From Favolaschia claudopus (Eukaryota; Basidiomycota; Agaricomycetes; Agaricales; Mycenaceae), in contig JAWWNJ010000010.1 in NCBI GenBank assembly GCA_037176885.1, positions 3,100,001 through 3,164,000 on the forward strand: a stretch of 64,000 nt of DNA, given 5' to 3'. Numbering within the stretch: position 1 is the stretch's first letter; the number at the start of each line of letters is the position of its first letter. The notes under the pieces are model-generated. The model was not told the DNA's origin. It ran no database searches and was given only the letters and a program-made list of their open reading frames with translations. Shown one piece after another: positions 39,959-64,000 of this stretch. The position numbers and the translations under genes are program-made.

Positions 39959-42526
39959 GCCTGGCCGCAAAGGCAAAGTCGTTGAAGACACGATGTTAAA
40001 CATGACTGCAGTGAACTTGCAGAGACGTTGAAGGACTATGAAATAATGTACTTATATTCTTCCTGTGTGTATTAATACAACCGATATCTTACATTGTTCC
40101 ACTTCAAGTTGCGCTGAACACCAATCGTCGAGCCGACGAGAAATCAATTTCCTGACTGGGTCTCAATCAGCCTCGGTCGTCTGACGGTCATAAGTACGGA
40201 TGTGGATGGGGACGTCGCGGCGTCTTCATTATTTCATTATATCCGCCCGGCTGGGAGAATCTGATTCCGAGTTGAGTTAGAACAGATGGCAGAAAGGGTG
40301 CCAGTGGGATTGTACTACTGTACAATTACGTTCAAATCGACATGGGGGGTGATGCGTGACGCGCCTGAACCAATTCGACATTTCGACAGAGGTCCTGGCG
40401 TGGCGTGACAGGGCGCAAATTTTCGACAACCCCCAGTCTCGTGAGGAGGAGCCTGGAAACATTTATAGTGAGTGAGTCTGGATTTTTTCCGTAAGGAATG
40501 GGAATGCGGTAGAGGCAGTTTATACCTTGAGCAAAACAACCGCATTTCAGGCCGAGATTTCGGTTGAAAATCACTCCAATTAGAGAATCTAGAAGAAATT
40601 GAACATAAGAAGTTGAGGAAGCACACCAGAGGGCCCATGCTACTAGGAAAGCGATTTTTCGAGCAAAATCCCCATTTTGGAGGAATTTTGCGAACCGAGC
40701 TGCCCATTCGACAATGGCCTGTGTGAGGCGTGACACAGCGCAAAAATTCGGTTCGACAGAGGTGGGTGTGACGCGTGATTAACGATTTGAACGTAATTGT
40801 ACAGTAGTAGAGGAAGACGTACCAGTGGAACATGAGCAGGATATTCGTAGGCATTATCACGGCGAAATCTATTCGACGAGACAGGGCAAATTCGACTCAT
40901 CTTCGAACGTGGAAGCATCAAGGGTGTAGTTAATGCGAGAGATGACTCGACTTGGTCAGTAGGGCGTCTCCGAGTCCGACACTGTCCTCGTCCCCGACAC
41001 GACTGAGGATATAGTAAGTATACAGAGTCATCAATTGCTTTACCTTTGATTCGGCTCCCCGTAGGTGAGGGAGTATACCGCCAAGGAAATATACCGCTTG
41101 TGCTGGGGTATGAGGTCGAGCTTGCGGAAAGTCGCCGACTCGGAGTCGCTAGCACCTTGAAAGAATTTACAGTAACGAAGAAAAAAAAGTCAAAACACAA
41201 GGTGGGCTGCCAGTGTTGAAGCCGGGTGGAAAGATTTTGCGCAGAAAATTGGGGAAAGGAAGATTTGACTGTTCCAGTTGCATATAATGAGCCAACCTTC
41301 TTCGTGGCATCGAGAGTATGAGCAGTGCCAACGCAACATCGTGGTGGTAAGGATCAAAGAACGCGTGTGACCGTTTTTGGTGATCTGGCAAGTTCTCACG
41401 CTGTCATGATCGCGATGTTCCCCTTTTTTCTTCCTCACCAGCACGACGCCCTCGCACCAGCTTGCACTGTTATTCTCGGGGCACCGAATTGGTTCTCTGC
41501 GCTGGAGCCGCCTCATGGCAGCTGAACGCTTCGGCCGTGTTTTTCAGATCGTTTTCCTCTGTGCTATGAGTACAGCAGTGAGAGCTGGTTCCCAAGGCTA
41601 AGCGCGTCGAACTCAACCCCTGTAACCAATCGGTGATCTGAGTCTCGGAAAAGAGACGGTATGCAGGCGAAAAAGAAAAAAGAATGGTCCGACTCTTTCC
41701 ATCCCTGCTCGATTCGCAGAGGTATCTAAATTTTATTGCGCCTGGTCTTCGAGCTCGTAAAGGACTTTTTCTTTCCTTTGCAGCTTCTGGCCGTCGGATT
41801 ATCCTGGCTCAATATTCAGCTCTTTATTCTCGGAAAATCACTTCGCCGGACTTGTGTCGACTCGCCGACAGGACATATTGATCGCCGTACCCCCACATCT
41901 ATCCTTTTTCGGAGCTGCTTCCCGCAGTTAATATAACCTCAGTAGGCTTTCTCTTCACACATTTCTCAGACACAAAACCGAAAGAATGCAGACGGCAAAG
42001 CGTATCGTCGCGGCAGCGTCCTCCGACGTCTCGCTTGTCCCACAGAAGCATCCAATATTGCCCGAATACCACTTCTGCCGGAAAATAGACTGTCCGGCGC
42101 GATTTCATTCCACCACGAGTTGACCGGTGGAAACCGTTGGATATACTCAGCCTCTACTGACTGCTCCACGTCCGAGCTGAATTTTGTCAATTGAAATTCA
42201 TTTTATCCACATTTTATATCGTTTTTTCATGAATTTTCGGACGTCGACTCACGAAGAAATCAAGCGTATTTTTGCGCTCCCCGCATGCGCCGTTCAGCAC
42301 GCAGTATGCCACCAATGTGGACGTCGTATTGCTGCGTCCGTTGTCACCACGGCGCACAGCCAAATGCGGGACTAACAGGATCCCTTCCCAATGGGGATCC
42401 ATCTTTGCTACGGCAAATTCGCATAATAGCGGCAAGCTCATATCATGCCCACCAACAAGTCACCCGTCAAACTCGTTACTCGTAGCTAATCATTTGCCTC
42501 CGTTCTGACTACCACCACCCACCCGC
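39959..42526. other. Intergenic DNA with a TA-flanked MITE
   Basis: Besides the MITE at 40318-40804 I see no supportable gene. Plus-strand frames at 41684-41936 and 42184-42508 lack motifs. The last 100 bp before 42527 are C/A-rich, as usual upstream of an ATG. Confidence 0.4.
40318..40804. mobile_element. MITE related to the Ulp1-transposase element
   Basis: CTGTACAATTACGTTCAAAT begins at 40318 and its complement ends at 40804. Both ends are flanked by TA, the Tc1/mariner-type target. The arms resemble those of the transposon at 51066-55719 (CTGTAC, then ATT, then CG and TCAA in the same register), and the subterminal word GTGACGCGTGA at 40767 recurs next to the right arm of that element at 55684. 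The 487-bp interior is noncoding. Most likely a non-autonomous derivative or relative mobilised by the same transposase family. Confidence 0.75.
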
Positions 42527-50948: not shown

Positions 50949-51065
50949 TGTTCTGTAAAGTAAGAACAAAAGGGTAAGAGCTCAGTCGGGACACGATAGG
51001 TGTAAACGACTGTATTGAGTCGGTACAATACCTAAAGTAAGAACAAAAGGGTAAGAGCTAGAGTA

Positions 51066-54000
51066 CTGTACTATTTCGGTCAATTCGCCCGGCCTGTGAC
51101 CTGTGACACCTTGAAACGAAATCCGAAGTTCGTCAATGGGCCGGACCGAGCGTGACACTCCAAAAATATTCGTCAATGCTCGAAAATACTAGCTACTCCC
51201 CTCAAACATGCTCAGAAACAGTGTACCAGTACATAGAAAGATAAAACAGGTGTAAACGGACAAACAGAGTCAAAAAATGTCCAGATAGAGCCAAAAGCAG
51301 TGTAAATCAATCAAATTATCTAAGCAATTTTCTGCGCACCTTCCCCGAGCACTCTCGCTGCGATGAGCAGTCGTCCAGGCGTTTTCACCATCCCGGATGG
51401 ACCGGAGAAGCTGTTCCTACCTCCAAAGAGTCTCCCAGTATCCAAACTCATCAAATTTACCCTCCCACCCCAGCGCAAATCCACCGTCTTTCCTGACGCC
51501 TCCGATTACCTTTCAGAAGACCTTCCTACCGTTGGGACGTTCAATGTTGCCGAAATTGTGATTCCACCGTCGATTGTCGTGAAGGACCTTGGCCGTGCAA
51601 TACTGGAGGACCCGGAAATGAAGTCAATTGTCCTCATTCATTCCCCGGCACATCGCGATAAAGCGGACCGCTATCCGCTCTGGCTAGCCACAATCTGGTC
51701 CATTCTTGAGCGTGTTCGCGAGGCAAAGAGTCTGTGGCGTGCTGCACTTGACCCCCTACATGAAGCACTCGAAAAGCCTGCGACCAGCAGTGACGCTGCT
51801 GCTAATATCCAAGCATCTCTTGCTGCGCTGGAAGTGCTACCATGGGATGGCGGGGTGGAGGGATTCAGAGCCGGAGGTGCTGTAGACGGACTTGCTCGAT
51901 GGTTCACGAAGGACTGGCTGCAAACTGACCACGAGGATCAAATGCTCGAGCTTTTGGCGGCTGACCTCGGAATTAGCGACGGAAGCACGAGCTGCATTCA
52001 AACAACCTACTTTGCGCAAGCTCTCGCCCTCGCATATGCAAATCCCACAACGTACCGAGCGGCTACTCAATTTGGATGGCTTCGACGACTTGGCATCGCA
52101 TTTGCGACAGGAAGTCGGCTCCGTCTAGGCACGATTGTCAATCAGAATGAAAACCATTGGGTTGCGCTCACTGTTGACTGCGAAAAGAAGATGGTCGGGT
52201 ATGGGGATGGATTTGGGGGGAAGGTGCCTGCGGGGCTTCGTAGACACCTTGATTGGTGGCTGTACGAGCATCTGGGAGCGAAGTTCAAGTGGATTGATGT
52301 ACCAGTGGCGAAGCAGAATGACGCGCACTCGTGCGGGATCCTCGCACATTCTGCCCTGGCGCATTGGTTTGATCCCGAGCGCTTCCCCCTTCCCGAATGT
52401 ACAGCTGCTTCCATGGTGGAAGAGCGTATCAAAATGTTTCTGCGCATCGTTAAGCGTCATCGGCAGAAGGTATGATTCACACTCACAAGATTTACCACCA
52501 ATAACTAATGTTGCGTAGAACGGTGGTAATTTTGCGGACGATGCCCGTGATTACGACTTCACATTTCGGCACTGGTTGGGCATGAACAGCCTTGCCAACG
52601 AGATAGATGTCGACGATGAGGTGGAGATTGAAGAGTACGCTCCAAGGACGGACTCACCTGTGGGTTCCGTCTACTCTGAATCCGCACCAGATGATTCAGA
52701 CTCCGGCTCGAGCAACGACTCCAGCTCGGATAGGTCTCCCTCCCCACTCCGTTCCCACCCCCCGCACTCGCACCATGTTCGTCTGTCATCACCGCAGGGC
52801 ACGTCTACGGTCCACAATCACAGTCAGCTCGACTCAGATTCGGGTGAAGAGGAATTTCCGCTCACAATTGCGACTCCCTCCCAGAGCCACGACGATATCC
52901 GGCCTATAACCCCGCCACCGCAAAAGCGAACTCACTCGGAGCGAGCGACGGACACACCGCATGCGAGCCCGGTTAAAAAGAAACTAAAAGAAAAAATTAG
53001 GAGCGCAACGAGCAGCGCGATGGGCATACTGAAAAAGGGCTCACCTTCTAAAGTGCCGGCGCTGTTTCGCATGTCTGGATGGGCAAAGGTGAAGGTGTTG
53101 ACGCAGCAGGAGAAGGAAGACGTATTTGCTGCGGAGGCGGATGAGCGCCGTGATAAAGCTGAAGAGCGTGCTATACGGGAGCGTCGTGAGAAGAGGGCAC
53201 AAGAGAAGAGGCGGAAGGATGGTCAGAATGAGCGGCAGCATCGATGCCGGGAGAAGAAGCGGCTGGCAAGGGAGCAGCTGAACGGGGGAGGAAAGAAGCG
53301 GAAGGTCAGTCCTAAATATCTGAGACGTATCGCAAAGCTAACTGACTGTTCTTAGGTGGATCTGCGATACCGGGAGACTGCTTCCCGTCACGAGATTGCG
53401 GAGGCGTCCCGCCCCGCTCGCGAAATCACTAAACGCATCAAAGAAAAAACTCGTCATCCTGCTGGCCGCAAAAAGAGAACAGGAGAGCGACGGGCCACGT
53501 ACATAAATTGGATGACACCGTTCGCCTGGTCTTCCATCACAGCGGCGCAGAGAAAAGTTGGGTGGGGTGCGACAGATATTGCGAGGGAGCTCCAGCGCGT
53601 CAATCACGATTTTTTCCAGCACTTGACGCCGTCGACGGTGAGGGGCTGGATTGAGAATGTCGGAGGCTTCAACCAGTGGAAGCCGAGTGTCCTTGCGCGC
53701 GCCGACACCGGCAACATTCCCGGCCACAATAAAGGGGGTCCACGCGGCATTCTGGTAAGAATAGTTGTTCGAGCACGAATGAGACTGATAGAAATTTGTA
53801 GAGCGCTCACCCGGAGATTGTTGAAGACATCATCGCACAGCTTACGGACTTGCGCGTGGCGGGTGCGCCTTTATCATTGGCGGTGGCGCGATGTCTCATC
53901 ATTGCAATCATCACTGAACGCGCACCGGAGCTCTTTGAGCATCGTTTCAAAGATGGGTCGTATTTCCGTGTCTCGGATTCGTTCTGCAGGAAGTTCCTGG

Positions 54001-55719
54001 ACAAAACATTAGCGTGGTCAATGCGAAAGGGTACAAAGGCCGCGCAGAAATTACCTGCTAACGCGGAGGAACAGTGTGAGAACGCGTTCCTCCGTCGCGC
54101 GTACCTGATCAAAGAGCATCGAATCCCTGCGGAGCTCGTCATTAACGCAGACCAGACTGGAGTGATCTATTTACCGGGATCGAAGATGACTTACGCACCT
54201 CGTGGGTCAAAGCAGGTTGCACTCGTCGGAAACGAGGAAAAGCGGGCATTTACCGCACTCCTCGCGGTGAATGCCGCTGGCGAACAGCTTCCGACGCAAT
54301 GCGTCTATGACGGGAAGTCACCGCGAAGTGTTCCCAAAGCTACGGCAACGAACCACAAGGCCGATTGCGATGCCGCGCAATTCCGTTTTGTCTTCTCCGG
54401 CAAAGTCCAGAATCACTGGTCATCTCAGAAGACGATGCGGGAGTGGATTGAAGACGTACTCATTCCGTTTCTCGACCGAATGAAGGCCGAGCACGGGTGG
54501 GACTCGCGGCGCGTCGCACTCCTCATCATTGATGTTTGGTCTGTTCACCGATCTGCCGCATTCTTGGACTACATGAAAGAGAATCACAAGAACATTATTG
54601 TCGACTTCGTTCCCGGCGGTTGCACCGGTGTGGGACAGCCTCTGGATGTGGGTATTAATCGGCCATTCAAACACGCTGTCAAGGTAGCTTACCATTCCTG
54701 GCTTGTCGACACTCTCCTGGAGCAACGTCGTAAAGGAGAAGGCTTGGATCTTGACACCTCGAAACCGGTATTGCGCGACGCGAGTGTTGGATGGATCTGG
54801 GAAGGATACAAAGCAACTCAGAACAAGGAACTGATTCTGAAGGTAGGGACATACCTCGGACAATTGCTCTACTCATACAAATCTCCCAGGCGTGGGCGAT
54901 GTGTCCGATTCGTGGTGGACTAAACCTTTCATATGAGTGCATGACCTCGCTCGACACTAACGATCGACTCGTCAACCTGCGACACGACAACCCCAAGCTG
55001 TGGGATGACTTACTAAACAAATCGACTCGCGACTACTGCCCGGGTGATGAGGAGGAGGTTGCTGAGGATATCGAGCCTCACGAGGATGAAGAACTCGGTG
55101 AAGACGACTCAGAGATCCCTACGCGCGAGGTTATCGATCACGTCGTCACGAAGAAAACACGGTCAAATCGGAAGCTTAAGACTCAGACGGACTCTGAGGC
55201 TGGACTCGGTTCGTTTGGAGAGGCTGACGATGCGGATGCTGAGGTTGTGTTGCCTGAGGAGGTGCCGGGTAAGCGCAAGCGCCGTGCGAACACTTTATAT
55301 GCTGGTTTTTGGAGACATGTCAATGCACAAGGCAAAGATACGGCGGAGCCGAAGGTGTAGATAATTCATGTACGAGGTAGTAGGAGGGCTGAGCAAGTTG
55401 TTGGGGAGAAAGAGATGGGAGCGGAAAGGACAGGCAGTGTGGGAGACGGAAGCAAAACACGAGTTTGCGCGATCACGTCAAAAATCGGCATGGCGTGTGA
55501 GCTGCGCGGGTTCCCGCGGAAATTGGTCCAACTGATGCGCGCGCTGAGCGCGCGCCGGAAAACGGGATTTTTTGGGCATTTTATTGAGAATTTTGAAAGC
55601 TTTTTGGGACTTTTTTGTCACATTCGTCAGAGCCGCCGGTGACCTGTGACAGGCGCGAAAATATTCGTCAATCCAGGGAGCTGTGACGCGTGACAGACGA
55701 ATTGACCGAAATAGTACAG
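51066..55719 (+). mobile_element. 4.65-kb TA-flanked DNA transposon encoding a Ulp1 protease-DDD transposase fusion
   Basis: CTGTACTATTTCGGTCAATT begins at 51066 and its exact complement ends at 55719. TA at 51064-51065 and 55720-55721 is the target duplication of the IS630-Tc1-mariner group. Subterminal words occur in direct orientation at both ends: TGACCTGTGACA and AAAATATTCGTCAAT (about 51104/51162 left, 55639/55658 right). The element holds one intact multi-exon gene (51363-55360), and 360 bp of noncoding DNA before the right arm. Near-perfect arms and an unbroken coding region suggest recent insertion into the copia LTR. Confidence 0.85.
51363..55360 (+). CDS. Ulp1-like cysteine protease fused to pogo/Tc1-type DDD transposase, 1267 aa
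   Basis: Five exons, 51363-52469, 52519-53304, 53356-53754, 53802-54842 and 54890-55360. All four introns (47-51 nt) are phase 0, so one continuous protein is predicted. Residues about 200-345 form a C48 (Ulp1/SENP) protease core: NENHWVAL with His265, YGDGFGG with Asp282, KQNDAHSCG with Gln318 and Cys324. Residues 370-630 are acidic, then highly charged and Arg/Lys-rich, probably nuclear-targeting. Residues about 660-760 hold a helix-turn-helix-like segment (GWGATDIARELQRV, LTPSTVRGWIENVG). The DDE_1-type catalytic domain has INADQTG (Asp881), LLIIDVWSVH (Asp1008) and GVGQPLDVGINRPFK (Asp1046), a DD37D spacing. An acidic C-tail ends near a basic KRKRRAN. The alternative that protease and transposase are separate genes is disfavoured by the in-frame joins and the lack of an intervening stop or promoter. 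Confidence 0.85.
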
Positions 55720-55917
55720 TACGATATAAGTAAGCCGTAGACTAGATAGAATGTAAGTAGCTCACCTCAGTCGGGACACGATAGGTGTAAACGACTGAGG
55801 TGCAGCATCGGATAGTAACCATCATATGTATGAGACAGAAAAGGAAATACGGAACACTACGGGTACCTGGGGAGCGTACCGGACGGGCCTACTACAACAC
55901 TCCCCCAGACCCGGCGG
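55361..55917. other. Transposon right flank plus remainder of the copia LTR
   Basis: Noncoding. Includes the subterminal repeats and right inverted repeat of the DNA transposon (to 55719) and the LTR segment with the hairpin at 55766-55797. Confidence 0.6.
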
Positions 55918-58212
55918 CTACGCGGAGAAACGAAGGTTGAGAAAGTCGAGATACTTGTAGTGGGCATCGCGGGGAAGAGGTTTGGTGAATAGATCGGCGG
56001 GATTTTCGTTGCCACGGATGAAATCAATCCTCACTTCCTTGTTCTGGACAAGTTCGCGAATGTAATGGTGGCGAACATCGATGTGCTTGACTTTACTGTG
56101 AGATTTGGTGGTCTTGGTTAAGTCCACAGCACCACGATTGTCGCAGAACAAGGTAATTGGAGATGGTGAGTCTTGTTTTACTTCCTCCATCCAGGCAGAG
56201 ATCCAGCGCGCCTGCTGCGCAGTGCGTGTGAGCGAGATGTATTCTGCCTCCACGGTGGATAGCGCAACGGTTGCCTGACGCTTAGAGGACCAGCAGACAG
56301 GTGCACCGGCCATGGTGAAGACATATCCAGAAGTTGAGCGGCGTGTGTCGACGCAGTTTGCATAGTCGGAATCACCGTATCCAAGAGGATTAAGGTCAGC
56401 GTCGCGTGAGTAGACGAGTGAGAAGTGGAGGGTGTTGCGGATGTATCCGAGGGTATGCATTAGCGCGCGCCAATGCTCAATGCCGGGATTTGTTTGGAAG
56501 CGGGAAAGAAGACTGACAGCGTAGGAAAGATCAGGCCTAGTTGCCAGCTGGCCCCACATCACCGACCCAAGCAAAACTCGGTACGGCTTCCCCACCATCT
56601 CAGCGCGTTCCTCGGGGGTCGAAGGACACATAGCAGATGTGAGAGAAATACCGACGGGAAGGGGTGTGGTGCGAAGTTGAATATTCTCCAGCTGGTGATC
56701 TGCTAACACTTTCTCGAAGTAGGCGCGCTGAGAAAGAGTGACAGTGCCTGCCTCCAGGTCCTGGTCGACGCGCATACCAAGCAAACGGTGAGTATGACCG
56801 ACGTCTTTGATGTCCCAGATTCCGGCTAACTCAGCCTTGCGCAGCTCCGCTTCTTCAAGAGACGAAGATGCACCCCAGACGTCGTCCGTGTAGGTGTCAG
56901 TCAGTGTATACCCGCCGTTTTTGGTGACCTTGACGCGTACACAAGGATCAGCTTTCGACGCTGCGTACCCCAGATCAGTGTAGGTTCCACCCAACGTTTC
57001 GGCCCAATCCCTTCCGCCTTGCATCGTGCCATAAATCGTCTTCTTCAAACGGCAAGCCCATCCCTCTTTTCCTTCCACCTCATAACCCCTCGGCTGCTCC
57101 ATGTAGATCTCCTCCTTCGTCTCACTGTTCAGGTAAGCTGCTTCAAAGTCGATCTGCCATAGATGAAGATTTTGTTTGGCAGTGATGGCAGCGGTCATGC
57201 GAATAGACTCGAGACGAGCAACAGCGGCCCACGTCTCCTCGTAGTCGATTCCATGCACCTGGGTAAACCCTTTTCCGACGAGACGAGCCTTGTCCCGAAG
57301 CCAATTACCAGCACCGTCTTTCTTCACATCATACACCCACTTGGACGCCATGACATTCGCTCCCGGAGGCGGACGCTGCAACTCCCACGTCCCTTTCTTC
57401 TCATGAAGAGCCATCTCAACATCCATTGCCGCAGTCCAGCGATCAGCGTCAAGCTTCATCGCTTCGCTGAAGTGTTTCGGCGCGTACAAACGGTCGGGAT
57501 TATACGACATCAAGGTGTGTGAGATGTGTTCATCAAGCTCCGAGTTCAGACTAACAATTTCATCCCAGGCTGCATTCGCTCTCGGCTTCGTTGATTTAGT
57601 TGCCCATTCCTCACGGTTAGCCCGCGCGGCGTCCTCCCGTGCAGCCGCCTCGCGTGATTCGGTGATACGAGTGGTCGCTGTTGTGGTGCGGGTGGAACGA
57701 CGAGGAGGTTCGGCAGCGGGCGGTGCAGGCTGTGGCATCGCCGGGGGAGCAGGTACGTTCAGAGGTTCGGCTGGCGCAGGTGCAGGCTCATCAACTGGCT
57801 CAGAGTCGTGTCCAGCCTCCGGACTGTTGCGCCGAGCACTGGCGGATGAAATCGGCTCCACGGGTACGTCGTCTTCTCTCTTCCTCGCATCCTCCTCCTC
57901 ATCCACAGTGCGGTTAGCCTTCCCCTCGTCAAACTCCACGTTACGGCTCTCAAATTGTTTCCCATGCTCGTCAAGCAAGATATAATTCCCCGCGCCGGTC
58001 GCGTATCCAATGAAAGTCGCGGGAATGGTACGGCTCTCTAACTTGCTCCCCCCATCCACACGCTGACCATTTATGATGTTGACCTTAGCACTACACTTCG
58101 CACCGAACACCCGCATGTGAGAAACGTCAACGGATCGACCATCAAACGCCTCCTGCGGGATACGTCTGGGATGACGGCGTGTCGGTGATAGGGCCGCTAT
58201 ACGGCTAGGCAT
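55918..58212 (-). CDS. Ty1/copia polyprotein fragment: integrase end, reverse transcriptase, RNase H
   Basis: Open for 764 codons from 58212 and in fact open a little further upstream, but lacking gag, protease and most of integrase. Order: integrase C-terminal region (DVSHMRVFGAKCSAKV and IGYATGAGNYILLDE), a Pro/Ala-rich linker, reverse transcriptase of the RVT_2 family (SKWVYDVKKDGAG, RLVGKGFTQVHGIDY, WQIDFEAAYLN, active-site YTDDVWG) and RNase H (GYGDSDYANCVDTRRSTSGY, STVEAEYISL, KHIDVRHHYIRE). It is intact to its stop codon. The 5' part is missing because gypsy sequence starts near 58220, so it cannot be autonomous. Confidence 0.92.
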   Translation of the reverse strand: MPSRIAALSPTRRHPRRIPQEAFDGRSVDVSHMRVFGAKCSAKVNIINGQRVDGGSKLESRTIPATFIGYATGAGNYILLDEHGKQFESRNVEFDEGKANRTVDEEEDARKREDDVPVEPISSASARRNSPEAGHDSEPVDEPAPAPAEPLNVPAPPAMPQPAPPAAEPPRRSTRTTTATTRITESREAAAREDAARANREEWATKSTKPRANAAWDEIVSLNSELDEHISHTLMSYNPDRLYAPKHFSEAMKLDADRWTAAMDVEMALHEKKGTWELQRPPPGANVMASKWVYDVKKDGAGNWLRDKARLVGKGFTQVHGIDYEETWAAVARLESIRMTAAITAKQNLHLWQIDFEAAYLNSETKEEIYMEQPRGYEVEGKEGWACRLKKTIYGTMQGGRDWAETLGGTYTDLGYAASKADPCVRVKVTKNGGYTLTDTYTDDVWGASSSLEEAELRKAELAGIWDIKDVGHTHRLLGMRVDQDLEAGTVTLSQRAYFEKVLADHQLENIQLRTTPLPVGISLTSAMCPSTPEERAEMVGKPYRVLLGSVMWGQLATRPDLSYAVSLLSRFQTNPGIEHWRALMHTLGYIRNTLHFSLVYSRDADLNPLGYGDSDYANCVDTRRSTSGYVFTMAGAPVCWSSKRQATVALSTVEAEYISLTRTAQQARWISAWMEEVKQDSPSPITLFCDNRGAVDLTKTTKSHSKVKHIDVRHHYIRELVQNKEVRIDFIRGNENPADLFTKPLPRDAHYKYLDFLNLRFSA

Positions 58213-60158
58213 GAAATGCTCGGAATTTATCGATTTTCGAGACCTATCAGCGGGAGAAGTGAGGTTAGGATAATAGAAGATATGCCCGTCCTCGCGGGCA
58301 GTATCTTATTGCTGTGGATAGCCGACAAGCTGGCGGGACACCAACGGGTAGCAGCGGCTTAGCGACGTTTCCCTAAACATGGGTGCGAGACTCTGCCGCT
58401 GACTATTTCTAAACTGCCGGGCCAAGGGACTTGGTGGGAAACTACTATCTCGAGGTGCTGGAGGCGACTAAGAGGAACTACCGACCTCCCTGAGGTTAGG
58501 CGCTCACCCGCCGACCAACATGAAGAAGATCTAGCGGGGGACCATACTGAGTTCAACTTCGAACTCAGGGCGGCCACTACTCTATCGACGAACAGGATCA
58601 CCGGCAGGCCCTAACCGAGCATGCCGGCTGATTACGGACAGCCGGGACTTAACCGACTGCCAGCGGGAGCACCGCGGAGCCAGCGGCTATCCAGCCAGCG
58701 GCTCTGTCAGAATGATGAGAAGGACATGGCGAGTTGCCGGGGGCATTTCCCGCTGATTGCGGACAACCCGAACGGCGAGTGGCGAGCCGCTAACGCGGCT
58801 CGGCTCTCCCTATTTTCCCTGGGACTTATACTGTTCTGAATATGGAGGAAGAGACGAACTTGACCGCTGTCGAGCCGTTGACTAACTACTCAGCGGGAAG
58901 CCTTTTCGACTTCAACTCGACCAGCGGCGGGACCATATTATGAAGGAGGAATTTCGTGTCCCCTCCCGGGGACATGGCAACCAGCACGCCATTGCACTGC
59001 AATAAGGCGCAATACCCACCCGCCCGCATGGACTTTCTCCGGGAGGCAGTCTTTTCACTCACGACTCGCAATCCTGAATATACCATTGGTTCCCAGCGGG
59101 CGCGGCATCAAACTTGGACAGTCTCTCATCATGATTTTATTTGGTTGTTTCTGCTCCCGCTGCATGTATTTAATCTCCCGGTGTACTTTTTGTTACTCAG
59201 TCAATTACCTACCCGTAGACAAGGGCAGTTTGTAGCGGACTCTAGAATTTGAATTGAAGCTTTGAAAGAGACTAGACTTGATATCTGAGAGAGACTCGAG
59301 TGATACGGAAAGACTTGTGGCATACCGAGCCGCCAGAACTTTGAGAGCCCCGCCAGCCTTTGAGCCCGCGCCCTCCTGAAATACGAAGCCCCGTCTCTTG
59401 CAGTTCCGCGGTATTCAAAGACCCCCGTTCGTGCTTGATTCCGCGCCGTCGACGCCCCGTGTGCCCTGCCGTTCCGCGGTATTCAAAGACCCCCGTTCGA
59501 GCTCGCCGCCGCGTAGTGGTGTAAGTGCCCCGGCCACTGTTAGTGTCCGCGCCATCGACGTAAGAGCCCCGCTCCTTGCCAGAGCCGCGCCAGTTGAATA
59601 AGAACCCCGTCCCGCTGAGCCGCGCCTTCTGCCCGCCGGTTGCCATCCAGAAAGCTTCTTCCCGGTTGACGATCCACTACCGGGCGACGCTTTTCTATTG
59701 GCACGGAGACCCTCCCCGCTAGACTCAGAATTTCTCATTTCGAAGTCTCAGAAAGAGTGACTCTTCGCTTCTCCCGCTGCGAATCGTTTGGCCCGCTACG
59801 TTCTCGCTAGACAATCTAGTAGTTCGTCCCGCTCAAACGTAGCGACCTTGATTGATTGAAGCTTGCCCAAGTATTCTGAGGGACGATACGTGCTCCCGCC
59901 ACCCCGAACACACACACACACACGTCGTATTGGATTAGATTTTGTGATTTTATATTTCGGTATATTTCACGCCTACACCTACACGCACCGTTTCATCTGG
60001 AGCCCACCGCGAGGGGTGACAGATTATTTGTGTCAAGTCGAAAGAAATCACTTGTGGACGCTGCTATAAACTAGCACGAACCATCCGCCGGTTGACTCGA
60101 GAATAGAATATACACCCGCCCGTTGAGCCGTTTAGCTCCAGGCCCGCGATAGAAGATT
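58213..60158 (+). mobile_element. Probable LTR and leader of a Ty3/gypsy element
   Basis: No credible gene. Sequence style changes at about 58220, exactly where the copia frame loses homology. The region runs without interruption into gypsy gag, so it most likely holds the 5' LTR and untranslated leader. TGAGGTTAGG is repeated (58259 and 58491), and ATAGAAGAT occurs near both 58271 and 60149. The words CAGCGGG/CCCGCTG recur throughout this stretch and the gypsy genes. LTR edges and primer-binding site could not be fixed. A short CA microsatellite lies at about 59909-59924. Confidence 0.55.
59340..59640. repeat. Degenerate tandem repeat of about 34 bp in the gypsy leader
   Basis: CCCCG and CCGCG alternate at intervals of about 17 bp over roughly 300 bp, giving a decayed unit of about 34 bp. 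Two longer copies of TTCCGCGGTATTCAAAGA lie at 59404-59421 and 59480-59497. Open frames across it are compositional. Confidence 0.55.
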
Positions 60159-60377: not shown

Positions 60378-60380
60378 TCG

Positions 60381-62081
60381 TTGAGCCCCTCTGCTCCGCT
60401 GGAACAACAAACCCCGACTCAACCGCCCGGCACTAGACCTGTTACGCCCGACGGTGCAGCTACCCAGTCGTCAACGACTCTCTCGTCTGTCTCTTCACCA
60501 CTACTCCAAACTTCACCAACCCCTTCAAACAATCCAATGGCTGAAGACGGCAATAATACTGTCGCCCGAGGAAAGAAGCGCGCGCCGGAACCATGGGACA
60601 GGAACGCCCCGCTCTTCAAAGAAGATGAGCCGGAGGAACTCGTTCGTTTCCTGGACCATGTGGAGCGTATGATGGAATTAGATGAGACGCCGGCCGACAA
60701 GAAGAACGAGTTCGTCTGCCGCTACACCGCTCAAGCTACGGCTGAAGAGTGGCGGCAGTTCGACTCGTTCTCCAAGACGTTCGACGACTTTAAGAAAGAA
60801 ATCCTGGAAAATTACCCGTCAGTCGTCGACCAGAAGAAGGGCTCTGTGCAGAAATTGCACAAGCAGCTTCGTAAGTTCGCTGAAGAGGGGATTGACCGGG
60901 ATGATGAGGACGAGCTCCTGCGCCTCACGCGAACCATGAACGTCGAGGCGAACAAGCTTCTCGATTCGAACTTGATTTCGCACCGGGAAGCCCTCCCGAT
61001 GTTCTTCTCCAAATTGACTCGCGAGTTTAAAGAGCGAATCCTGGAGAATCTCGAGAGGAAACCTCCCGCTGAGGACGACGACGAGCCAGACGCCCGCTCA
61101 TGGACGCTGGCCGAAGTCATGAGTGAGGCCAAAAAGATCGCGAAACGTTCGACCGCCAACTCGGAGTTCTTTGGCACTTCTGATCGAGGTTACTCGAGCA
61201 AGTCAAAGAGCGCCAGCGGCTCTGGACGAGCGTCGAGCGGGCGGTCGATTCTCCCGAATCCGAACGTTGCGATTAAGAAAGAAGAAGAGGACCCTAACAA
61301 GGCCCTTCTTGAGACGATTAAGGTGTCGGTCGTCACTATGATGGAGCGGCTGGATAATCAGACCTCCCAATTAAAAGAGATCGACGCCGCGACCAAGAAG
61401 AAGATGGCTGAGTTAGAGTCCTTCTATAAGTCCCTACCGGGCAGAGTCCCAGGCGCCGCTGACTCCCAGTCTTACCCGCGATTGCCTACCGTGCAATTCA
61501 AAGGGAACCTGGCGGATCAGGGGTGTCTTTATTGCGACAAGTTTGGGCATTTTAGAGATAAGTGTCTCATCCGGCAAGCCCACATAGGGAGTGGAAAGAT
61601 GAAGGTCGTGGGGTTCAGAGACTGTTTCCCCGATGGGATACCTATCCCGAAAGACGGGCACAAGTCCAAGAAGCAGCAGGTAGAGGAGTACCGCCCGGCC
61701 GCCCAACCAACGGCCGCTGCGCAAAACTACCAGTCTGTCTTCGCTCAGCTCTCCGTTCTTGACATGGACGAGCAGGAGCTGGAAGCCGCGCAAGCCGCGT
61801 TCAGCCAGAACGAGGAATTCTACTATGACCCGAGAGAAGAAGAATTGGTTTCCTTGCGAGCTGAGCAAGTAAACCTCCAGCGGCAAGTGACGCAACTCCA
61901 GTCGCATGGTTCAGGGGGTGTTCAACCACCCCTTGTGGCTCATCAAAGCCAACCTCCCCCGCCGCAATTCGACGCCAACGCTGTTGCGATTCTACTGGCG
62001 GCTGTCTCAGCGAACTCTCGCTCTCCCAACGGGGCTGGTCCCTCCCGAACGGGGAACAGCGCCGAAGGAGAGCATTTTTAG
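60381..62081 (+). CDS. Ty3/gypsy Gag with CCHC zinc knuckle
   Basis: Open from just after the TAG at 60377. The first ATG is at 60538 (MAEDGNNTVARGKKR), giving about 514 aa. The capsid-like helical region (LFKEDEPEELVRFLDHVERM, CRYTAQATAEEWRQFDSF) is followed by a Ser-rich basic stretch and a coiled coil. A zinc knuckle of form CX2CX4HX4C follows (CLYCDKFGHFRDKC, cysteine codon at about 61524), which packages the element RNA. A second coiled coil (LVSLRAEQVNLQRQVTQLQ) is near the end. The stop TAG at 62079-62081 is preceded directly by a run of five T, and the protease frame is open across this point. Confidence 0.88.
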   Translation: MSPSAPLEQQTPTQPPGTRPVTPDGAATQSSTTLSSVSSPLLQTSPTPSNNPMAEDGNNTVARGKKRAPEPWDRNAPLFKEDEPEELVRFLDHVERMMELDETPADKKNEFVCRYTAQATAEEWRQFDSFSKTFDDFKKEILENYPSVVDQKKGSVQKLHKQLRKFAEEGIDRDDEDELLRLTRTMNVEANKLLDSNLISHREALPMFFSKLTREFKERILENLERKPPAEDDDEPDARSWTLAEVMSEAKKIAKRSTANSEFFGTSDRGYSSKSKSASGSGRASSGRSILPNPNVAIKKEEEDPNKALLETIKVSVVTMMERLDNQTSQLKEIDAATKKKMAELESFYKSLPGRVPGAADSQSYPRLPTVQFKGNLADQGCLYCDKFGHFRDKCLIRQAHIGSGKMKVVGFRDCFPDGIPIPKDGHKSKKQQVEEYRPAAQPTAAAQNYQSVFAQLSVLDMDEQELEAAQAAFSQNEEFYYDPREEELVSLRAEQVNLQRQVTQLQSHGSGGVQPPLVAHQSQPPPPQFDANAVAILLAAVSANSRSPNGAGPSRTGNSAEGEHF

Positions 62082-62167
62082 AGAGTTCGAGGAAGGGGGC
62101 AAAGGGGAAACCCAGTGCGGATAAGCCCCCGGAGAACAGACAAGTACGCCCGCCTGTAGGAAAGAAA

Positions 62168-63334
62168 ATGGAAGTTGTGATGCCGAAATTGCCCTACAAG
62201 CCGAGGACGCTGCGAAAGCCCGCTGTCGAAGCACAGCCGGCGATCGTTGAAACCAAGGAGAAAGGGCGGGAGGAGACAGAAGAACAAAATGGCGCTCAGC
62301 CGCCGGAGCTTCCGTATAGGAACGTTCCTCCGGTCAAGCCAGCCAAAAGGCCCAACGAACCTAGAGTTCGGCCGGCGGGAGATCCGCCGTTAGTGGCCAA
62401 CGAAAAGAACTACGAGTTGAAGGCGCCCGTAGAGGACCAGGACGATGAGGAGGTCGAATCCTTGATAAAGGAGATCTTCGGAAACCTGGAAATAGCTCTC
62501 CCGCTGGGGAGACTGTTCGCCCTCAGCCCGAAGTTGCTGCGCCAGGCTAAGGCGTTGCTCTCGAAGAAGAGGGTCTCGCCCGCTGTTCGAGTAACCCTAG
62601 AACAGTTGATTAGCCACGCAGAGAGAGAGTCCGACGAAGATGACGAGTCCTCCAGCGTAACCGTAGAGGACCTACCTTACGAGGTAATAGTTCAGGTCGC
62701 GACAGCGGCCGACGGACTTATGCCAGCGGGAGCCCTGATCACCGTCGACCCAGTAGTCCAATATTGGCAGTCGATAGTGGAGGGAGAGCCGGTAAGGGAT
62801 GTCTTCGTCGCCATCTCCGACAATGCTTCTGCCGGAGAATCAGCGGCCCTGAGAGTGGTCTTCCCGCTCATTCACGGCGCCGCTGAAGTTGAATGTATTC
62901 TGGACGGTGGATCGCAGATCGTGTCCATGGCCCTGTCGGTAGCCACCGAACTAGGAGTCAGCTGGGACCCAGATAACTGCATCCACATGATGAGCGCCAA
63001 CGGGCAAACCGAGAAGTCAGTCGGTCTGGCAAGGAACGTCCCCTTCAGGTTCGGTGACATGACGGTGTACCTTCAAGTGCATGTCATACAAAACCCGGCC
63101 TACAAGGTGCTGTTGGGGCGACCCTTCGAAATCCTGACCGCCAGCGGTATCAAAAATACCTCTGACGGGAACCAGTTCCTGACTTTGACCGACCCCTCCA
63201 CGCAGAAGCGGGTGGTCGTCCCTACCTTCCCCAGAGGCCAGCGGCGACAGGTGCGGCGCGTCCAGAACGACGCATCACCGGCTGAGCAGCCGAGCAGCCA
63301 AGAGGAGCAAAATTTTCAGAATTCGAGGAGTTGA
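62168..63334 (+). CDS. Ty3/gypsy protease reading frame
   Basis: 388 codons from its own ATG, although the frame is open further left into gag. The N-terminal half is charged and disordered. The C-terminal half holds a retropepsin-like fold: VECILDGGSQIVSMALSVA, with the catalytic Asp in DGGS in place of the usual DSG/DTG, then GVSWDPDNCIHMMSANG, KSVGLARNVPFRFGDMTVYL and YKVLLGRPFEILTASGI. It cleaves the Gag-Pol precursor. The frame is -1 relative to gag and +1 relative to the following pol frame. Confidence 0.88.
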   Translation: MEVVMPKLPYKPRTLRKPAVEAQPAIVETKEKGREETEEQNGAQPPELPYRNVPPVKPAKRPNEPRVRPAGDPPLVANEKNYELKAPVEDQDDEEVESLIKEIFGNLEIALPLGRLFALSPKLLRQAKALLSKKRVSPAVRVTLEQLISHAERESDEDDESSSVTVEDLPYEVIVQVATAADGLMPAGALITVDPVVQYWQSIVEGEPVRDVFVAISDNASAGESAALRVVFPLIHGAAEVECILDGGSQIVSMALSVATELGVSWDPDNCIHMMSANGQTEKSVGLARNVPFRFGDMTVYLQVHVIQNPAYKVLLGRPFEILTASGIKNTSDGNQFLTLTDPSTQKRVVVPTFPRGQRRQVRRVQNDASPAEQPSSQEEQNFQNSRS

Positions 63335-64000
63335 TTAACCATCGAGGAGAATTAGCGGTTCAGATAGAACTGGACGAGAATAATGTTCCTAGAATTTGGG
63401 CTTTGATGAAGTCTGGAGAAGAGGGATTTTCGATGGCCGAGACGAAAATGGCCTACCTGGCGGCTGCCATGCCAGAGATTGATGATGAACCCGCTGCTCA
63501 GTTATTCCAAGAATACAACGAGCAGCTGACAGGAGGAAAAGAAGTCGGCGAATCCTATGTGGCTATCGTAGCCAACATAACGGACAAAGTCAGAGAAAAA
63601 CTGAAGGATCCGGCCGCTGTGTTCATGACTGCCGGCATCGATATCGAGTCGGTTAGGCAAGAGCAATCCCGTCATTCAGCGGGGGAGCGCTGTCAGTGCT
63701 GTGACTACGCCGATTGGGTAGTACCCGGGTTTGAACACAATGAGACGAAAGTCGCTTTGATGGAGGAAATCATTCCCGAGGATCACCCGCCTGAAGTCGA
63801 GGTGAAGGAGGTGTTCTCGAAGAAGTATAAACCGGTAGCGCTAAAAGTAAAGCCGGTCCTCGAGCCGCTCCCTCCCGAGTTCAGGATAGAAAGGAATATC
63901 ATCGGGGATCCATTGCAGAACCTCGTCCCGCTAGACCCTCACCCGCCAGAATTCGTTCCCGTTGGGAGATACACTGCGGAGAGGAAGGCGGTTGTAGACG
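63304..64000 (+). CDS. Ty3/gypsy Pol, N-terminal part (cut by window end)
   Basis: Open in the -1 frame from before the slippery site to the end of the window. Contains EHNETKVALMEEIIPEDHPP, KEVFSKKYKPVALKVKPV and LPPEFRIERNIIGDPLQNLV, the segment that precedes reverse transcriptase in basidiomycete gypsy polyproteins. The RT, RNase H and integrase lie beyond the edge. No stop in about 230 codons. Confidence 0.85.
63310..63316 (+). promoter_or_regulatory. Programmed -1 frameshift site between protease and pol
   Basis: A AAT TTT in the protease frame is a canonical X XXY YYZ slippery heptamer. It lies 16 nt before the protease stop (63332-63334). A -1 slip enters the frame that reads FSEFEELINHRGELAVQ and stays open to the window edge. 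No obvious strong downstream stem was worked out. Confidence 0.7.

Follow-up and report, generated by a model that had tools for sequence, protein, structure and literature searches.

Structure of the locus

The window analysed here is a 64,000-nucleotide stretch of DNA from the basidiomycete Favolaschia claudopus (positions 3100001-3164000 of contig C10, in an assembly of 264.6 Mb). The genome has been described as 265 Mbp in size, with mRNA sequencing used in its annotation (PMC10905254). The window contains a DNA transposon with a single gene. The predicted product of this gene is one protein of 1267 amino acids, in which a helical domain at the N-terminus is followed by a Ulp1/SENP-type cysteine protease, a linker containing a basic stretch, helical regions and a pogo-type DD37D transposase. 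Throughout the text, C-numbers are F. claudopus contigs, L-numbers are loci and P-numbers are proteins obtained from searches. The gene is composed of the following parts.

51363..52469, +, exon 1: N-terminal domain (residues 1-160) and C48 protease domain (residues 161-369)
51843..52469, +, Ulp1/SENP-type protease domain, residues 161-369, modelled with confidence from about 191 to 340
52155-52157, 52206-52208, 52314-52316 and 52332-52334, +, catalytic residues His265, Asp282, Gln318 and Cys324, respectively
52470..52518, +, intron 1, 49 nt, phase 0
52519..53304, +, exon 2: acidic/serine-rich linker, a basic stretch that the P0014 model shows as one long helix and, across the exon end, KKRKV, which we take to resemble a nuclear localization signal (NLS)
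53305..53355, +, intron 2, 51 nt, phase 0
53356..53754, +, exon 3: first helical region of the transposase, probably DNA-binding, with helices in the P0014 model
53755..53801, +, intron 3, 47 nt, phase 0
53802..54842, +, exon 4: second helical region and the catalytic core (Pfam DDE_1)
54843..54889, +, intron 4, 47 nt, phase 0
54890..55360, +, exon 5: C-terminal acidic tail and stop codon

A preliminary description of this DNA had proposed five exons and four phase-0 introns joined in one 1267-residue frame, and recomputation reproduced this structure: each exon length is a multiple of three, and the introns are all of the GT..AG type with lengths of 47-51 nt. Introns 3 and 4 are supported by comparison with relatives. 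At or near the junction of intron 3, 16-20 extra residues are present in 7 of the 25 alignments listed (31 cover the junction), and at or near that of intron 4 there are 15-22 extra residues in 7 of the 25 listed (26 cover it). Several of these inserts have V first and Q last, as the read-through of a GT..CAG intron would produce; in P0052 gaps precede the junction, so the position of its insert is loose. The relatives whose frames run through introns 3 and 4 are mostly metagenome-derived. Gap-free joins occur in 12 of 31 alignments at intron 3 and 6 of 26 at intron 4. Sequence conservation is poor around introns 1 and 2, where gap-free joins occur in 0 of 7 and 2 of 13 alignments, respectively; the gaps at intron 1 comprise 1-2 residues.

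Protease and transposase domains

Both the fold model of the protease domain and its PDB matches point to the Ulp1 fold, and two tryptophans of the protease align with Ulp1. A profile of 11 protease sequences matches yeast Ulp1 (E = 3.3e-10), and three relatives exceed the Pfam cut-off of 20.7 bits for C48 (PF02902), namely P0003 (26.3), P0010 (23.8) and P0014 (31.5). The four catalytic residues occupy the positions given in the preliminary description and are conserved wherever the aligned rows cover them (His in 10 of 10, Asp in 11 of 11, Gln in 9 of 9 and Cys in 9 of 9, window included). We consider it highly likely that the protease is catalytically active in living copies of the element.

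The transposase is recognized directly. The window protein matches DDE_1 with 48.5 bits, well over the Pfam cut-off of 22, and its catalytic triad consists of D881 (54150), D1008 (54531) and D1046 (54645). The 37 residues between the second and third aspartates confirm the DD37D designation; the triad is present in 59 of 61 covering matches and the 37-residue spacing in 56 of 60 alignments. Mariner catalytic domains, with an RNase-H fold, were found by fold comparison alone: a profile of 32 proteins compared with PDB by sequence yielded no convincing relative, the best match being a dynein subunit with E = 0.055. The helix-turn-helix (HTH) of the preliminary description fared less evenly. DNA-binding domains of the CENP-B/Tc5 HTH type characterize the pogo superfamily. 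Helices are present in the P0014 model, and HTH_Tnp_Tc5 was detected in one of the 32 proteins (E = 8e-5), but Pfam found no named HTH family in the window protein, and the HTH assignment of the exon 3 region is largely inferred.

The N-terminal residues 1-160 gave no Pfam match, and the fold search hardly covered them. The first 86 residues of this helical domain (51363-51842) match a kinase-domain protein of Mycena pura (P0007). The same N-terminal domain together with the protease module is found in P0006, an 1849-residue protein of Mycena sanguinolenta (28% identity over 442 columns), whose C-terminal part is different and has no Pfam match. The module may have been shared with another kind of element. 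P0006 and P0007 both match on the protease side and have no transposase.

Ends, mobility and copies of the element

The gene is enclosed by perfect inverted repeats of 24 bp, which delimit the element as follows.

51064..55721, +, complete transposon of 4658 bp, counted with both terminal TA dinucleotides and recognized from inverted repeats, a copy on C7 and an empty site
51064..51087, +, left terminal inverted repeat (TIR), 24 bp, perfect, starting with the target TA
55698..55721, -, right TIR, 24 bp, perfect, finishing with the target TA
51093..51176, +, left subterminal repeated motifs: CCTGTGAC twice, GCGTGACA, and TTCGTCAA twice, words common to both ends
55622..55695, +, right subterminal copies of the left motifs, with unchanged orientation

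The subterminal motifs, of which CCTGTGAC and TTCGTCAA are present at both ends in one orientation, are candidate sites for the transposase. A second copy of the element, on contig C7, aligns exactly to 51064-55721 with 99.4-99.7% identity and has unrelated flanks; its exon 4 is split by an insertion about 10.75 kb long. In three copies of the host repeat (L032, L033 and L034) the site is empty, the sequence running from the left flank through one TA to the right flank. The exact ends of the C7 copy and the empty sites together establish the boundaries of the element, the TA duplication and transposition. A domesticated host gene is ruled out by the TIRs, the empty site and the second insertion, and the locus is almost certainly a DNA transposon of the cut-and-paste type with one gene. 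The ends of the insert in the C7 copy (L024 and L025) overlap by 4 bp, as a target duplication would give.

A further complete element of 4572 bp is located on C183 (76138-80709). Its ends are like those of the window element and agree with one another at 22 of 24 bases, all five exons are open, the protease tetrad and the transposase triad are present, and GT..AG introns occur at matching places. Exons 1 to 5 share 60, 44, 68, 72 and 58% protein identity, respectively, with those of the window element.

The genome contains 53 exact matches to the 24-mer at the element end, counting the two ends of one copy separately, compared with none for the backward control. Forty candidates from the genome searches with the element ends were scored; copy counts given here come from DNA searches, which miss distant copies. 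Ten loci (L014-L023) are of a short type, and the seven that were measured are 505-1038 bp long and have both ends and the TA, two of the seven sharing the same flanks. One diverged short relative is in the window itself.

40316..40806, +, non-autonomous relative, 491 bp, with 24-bp perfect inverted repeats and TA ends, its terminal stretches resembling those of the fused element

Three other loci (L026 and L027 on C117, L028 on C204) are near-identical (99.2-99.8%) and contain the left element end and a protease exon with about 74-77% identity; transposase exons were not found in them.

Conservation of the fusion and selection on its parts

Three protein searches produced 74 proteins, among which 10 contain both parts as judged by profile and BLAST: P0001, P0002, P0003, P0010, P0014, P0028, P0029, P0061, P0068 and P0074. 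P0001 represents the window locus itself, and the protease is incomplete in P0028, P0068 and P0074. The named sources are F. claudopus, Mycena pura, M. galopus, M. olivaceomarginata, Pholiota molesta, Blastosporella zonata and Tulasnella sp. 408. Among the other 64 proteins, 53 cannot be judged because they are shorter than 550 amino acids; P0004 starts within the protease domain, and P0005 immediately after it. The protease is present in several genera, and at the level of predicted proteins the fusion is conserved. Searches of collections of viral contigs and genome contigs confirmed no relative at the DNA level.

Of the 14 transposase loci in the F. claudopus genome, 8 have protease exons followed in order by transposase exons (C10, C7, C240, C30, C3, C183, C13 and C349). 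The notion that the protease is dispensable, suggested by 98%-identical transposase copies without a protease match on C122 and C127, was not adopted: the C122 copy, the one such locus that was read, is broken, with its 5' half missing and a stop and a frameshift in exon 4.

The ratio of nonsynonymous to synonymous substitution rates (dN/dS) for exon 1 of the window element compared with C240 is 0.139 (bootstrap range 0.094-0.201), and the exon is open in both copies. The N-terminal 160 codons are the more constrained part of exon 1 (0.094, compared with 0.184 and a range of 0.107-0.297 for the C48 part). In the same comparison exon 2, the linker, is the least constrained of exons 1-4 (0.337); exon 3 gives 0.105 and exon 4 gives 0.054 (61 codons). 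Compared with C30, whose match contains one in-frame stop, exon 1 yields a dN/dS of 0.095 at a high dS of 1.85; in the comparison with C183 the synonymous sites of this exon are saturated. The low dN/dS of exon 1 indicates that the protease has been maintained in the lineage and is not a passenger. The purifying selection and the intact tetrad mean that the protease matters, which does not in itself indicate its target.

The two halves of the protein diverge together, as expected for one old fusion. The Mantel test gave rho = 0.91 (exact p = 0.0006, 5040 permutations) for seven proteins, a set that omits P0028, P0068 and P0074 as too short and includes three F. claudopus rows, which contribute to the result. 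Over all ten proteins rho is 0.64, with 38 of 45 pairs having at least 100 shared columns per half.

Gene models lacking the catalytic core

The NCBI model P0001 (R3P38DRAFT_3423853, F. claudopus) agrees without any difference with the predicted protein over residues 1-856. Its difference from our model lies in one alternative intron.

54076..54889, +, alternative intron of P0001 with the cryptic donor GTGAG, removing the DDE core

The donor at 54076 combined with the acceptor of intron 4 reproduces P0001 exactly, and the 814 nt removed include the whole catalytic core. The same joint in P0003 follows from the C183 sequence when the homologous donor (79041) is combined with an acceptor close by, which removes 804 nt. 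In the DNA of both loci the catalytic core is intact. The core-less models may reflect repeat masking during annotation or may correspond to a real second form of the protein.

Possible function of the protease

These observations lead us to propose that the DNA-binding part of the protein would take the protease to the transposon ends, where it would remove SUMO or another ubiquitin-like modifier either from proteins of chromatin, repair or silencing or from the transposase. As a consequence the element could stay expressed, or the transposition complex could form and finish its work. The protease could counter SUMO-dependent silencing or regulate the transposase, as the preliminary description had suggested. 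In view of two precedents, local deconjugation is the function that we consider most likely. VANC-type genes of plant VANDAL elements, which have a Ulp1 domain (KIU), are linked to hypomethylation of elements of their own kind via element motifs, and the review that describes them calls the role of the Ulp1 domain in VANC proteins unknown (PMC13317346). In the second case, SUMOylation of HMGXB4, a host factor of Sleeping Beauty, weakens its support of transposition (PMC10138897). A different proposal was made by the authors who described Ginger, where the protease was suggested to activate repair factors (PMC2836005). We consider our explanation as a whole to be probable, and there is an approximately even chance that local deconjugation favouring transposition is the function under selection.

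Several observations weigh against this explanation. The window protein scores 14.1 bits against C48 over its whole length and 17.3 bits with exon 1, both under the cut-off, so the C48 call rests on the relatives, the profile and the fold. The residue following the catalytic cysteine is variable (G, A, C or P). In the fold search the score of a NEDD8 protease is similar to those of SUMO proteases, with enzymes that cleave ubiquitin coming next; SUMO, rather than ubiquitin or NEDD8, is in our estimate the probable main substrate. Seven longer relatives (P0016, P0035, P0055, P0056, P0063, P0071 and P0072, 603-857 amino acids) have the transposase and no protease by profile; they may be genuinely unfused, or their gene models may be truncated. 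In the DNA search 6 of the 14 transposase loci have no protease match, the C240 copy used for the selection analysis is incomplete and matches just the first 257 bases of exon 4, and many further copies are broken or partial. Finally, the NCBI models P0001 and P0003 are without the transposase core.

The last observation, together with the seven longer relatives, could be taken to indicate two genes with separate transcripts, the fused model being an annotation artefact. P0001 and P0003 nonetheless join the protease to exons upstream of the core, and in P0010, P0014 and P0061 it is joined to the full catalytic core. The window exons are in frame, C183 has five open exons with GT..AG introns, and relatives read through introns 3 and 4. 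An arrangement of two genes is very improbable. The protease and DDE calls, the exon structure and the single-protein fusion of the preliminary description are upheld by the profile, the fold model, the comparison of splice junctions, the independent copies and selection. A neutral passenger, captured by chance and drifting since, would account for the protease exons that are broken in several copies; against it stand the dN/dS of 0.14, the tetrad kept in all covering rows and the occurrence in several genera, and we find it scarcely credible.

The main rivals are self-editing of the transposase and self-cleavage. The protease could edit the transposase or its partners and so set activity or stability, with no role in silencing. 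A target on the same chain and the joint divergence of the two halves favour such self-deSUMOylation, and SUMO control of a host factor of a Tc1/mariner element has already been reported (PMC10138897). Modification of the transposase is only supposed, however, and sequence cannot separate this possibility from local deconjugation at the transposon ends; we regard it as somewhat unlikely. Alternatively, the fusion could be a polyprotein in which the protease severs its own chain from the transposase, in the manner of adenovirus-type and related proteases acting on viral precursors. The single precursor and the weakly constrained linker are consistent with such processing, as is a Gly-Gly (or Gly-Gly-Gly) beside the basic NLS-like stretch in 6 of 15 proteins (window, P0002, P0004, P0005, P0070 and P0016). 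A single Gly is found at that place in P0003, P0014, P0028, P0035 and P0055, however, and in P0010, P0029, P0056 and P0061 no basic stretch was picked up there by the pattern; moreover, Ulp1-type enzymes are established to recognise a folded modifier and no short motif. Because the motif is not universal, Gly-Gly self-cleavage is kept as a minor rival, and a quite unlikely one.

Local deconjugation can be extended to a more speculative scenario, which we consider doubtful. In an old pogo lineage of mushroom-forming fungi, the DNA-binding domain would bring a SUMO protease to every full and short copy of the element and strip silencing marks, and alternative splicing from the conserved cryptic donor (GTGAG, Cys-Glu codons) would give a second, core-less form that retains the protease and the DNA-binding domain and acts as a dedicated anti-silencer or regulator.

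Sequences surrounding the element

The element lies within a repeat with many copies in the genome, presumed to be the long terminal repeat (LTR) of a copia element from the adjacent pol frame. The coordinates of this retrotransposon and of another probable one are as follows.

50956-51063 and 55722-58305, -, Copia-type retrotransposon, pol frame 55918-58305
60378-63999, +, long frames with the zinc-knuckle motif CLYCDKFGHFRDKC, probably another LTR retrotransposon

Elsewhere in the F. claudopus genome, seven DDE_1 matches of equal score with open frames of 412 amino acids (L001-L007) are present at separate places, perhaps reflecting a recent burst of another DDE_1 family.

Relation to known elements and significance

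Ulp1-like peptidases are known as passengers of KDZ elements, large transposons of basidiomycetes with a different transposase. The window element resembles the pogo superfamily (Fot/pogo/Tigger) of the IS630-Tc1-mariner group, with which it shares DDE_1, a TA target site, short TIRs, a DD37D spacing within the reported range of DD29-56D and a size of 4.66 kb inside the reported 1.2-5.2 kb (PMC7386202). Pogo elements are characterized by a TA (or TAA/TAAA) target duplication and TIRs, and here TA and TIRs are present. The protein differs in its 1267 amino acids, compared with the reported 300-977, and in its N-terminal Ulp1 protease (PMC7386202). Ginger1 also has a protease (Ulp1 or OTU) on the transposase protein, but its transposase is of the integrase type and the protease is C-terminal, whereas here an N-terminal protease precedes a DDE_1/mariner-type transposase (PMC2836005). 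Plant Mutator-like elements (MULEs) with KIU/VANC-type genes are likewise DNA transposons carrying Ulp1, there with an anti-silencing link; they belong to the Mutator superfamily and have Ulp1 in one of three element genes (PMC13317346). Oomycete Cryptons resemble the window element in that a mobile element encodes a C48 peptidase, but they are tyrosine recombinase elements, and some CryptonS have the peptidase as an additional protein (PMC3212892).

The preliminary description knew of no Ulp1 fusion to a Tc1/mariner-group transposase. The literature search agrees for that group, but fused Ulp1 as such exists in Ginger1 (PMC2836005). No pogo or Tc1/mariner element with fused Ulp1 was found among the best-ranked titles and abstract beginnings of the open-licence literature. 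In their texts, the pogo surveys PMC7325037 and PMC7386202 do not mention a protease (nor, in the latter, a peptidase), a screen of fungal transposable element fusions contains neither C48 nor Ulp1 (PMC10799480), and a report on TET/JBP in fungal transposons contains no protease, peptidase, mariner, pogo, Mycena or SUMO (PMC12730594). What is new here is a known Ulp1 module on a class of transposase for which no such record was found, and the element that carries it is well bounded and has relatives in several genera.

Ulp1-type proteases recur in several unrelated mobile elements, where their role is unsettled (PMC13317346, PMC2836005). In the present element that role is directly testable, because the protease is on the transposase itself and the element is compact, with defined ends, a near-identical second insertion and many short copies. 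The maintenance of the protease by selection suggests that this mobile DNA may carry a built-in tool against host controls, and the fusion would extend self-encoded control of protein modification to the transposon group that includes Sleeping Beauty.

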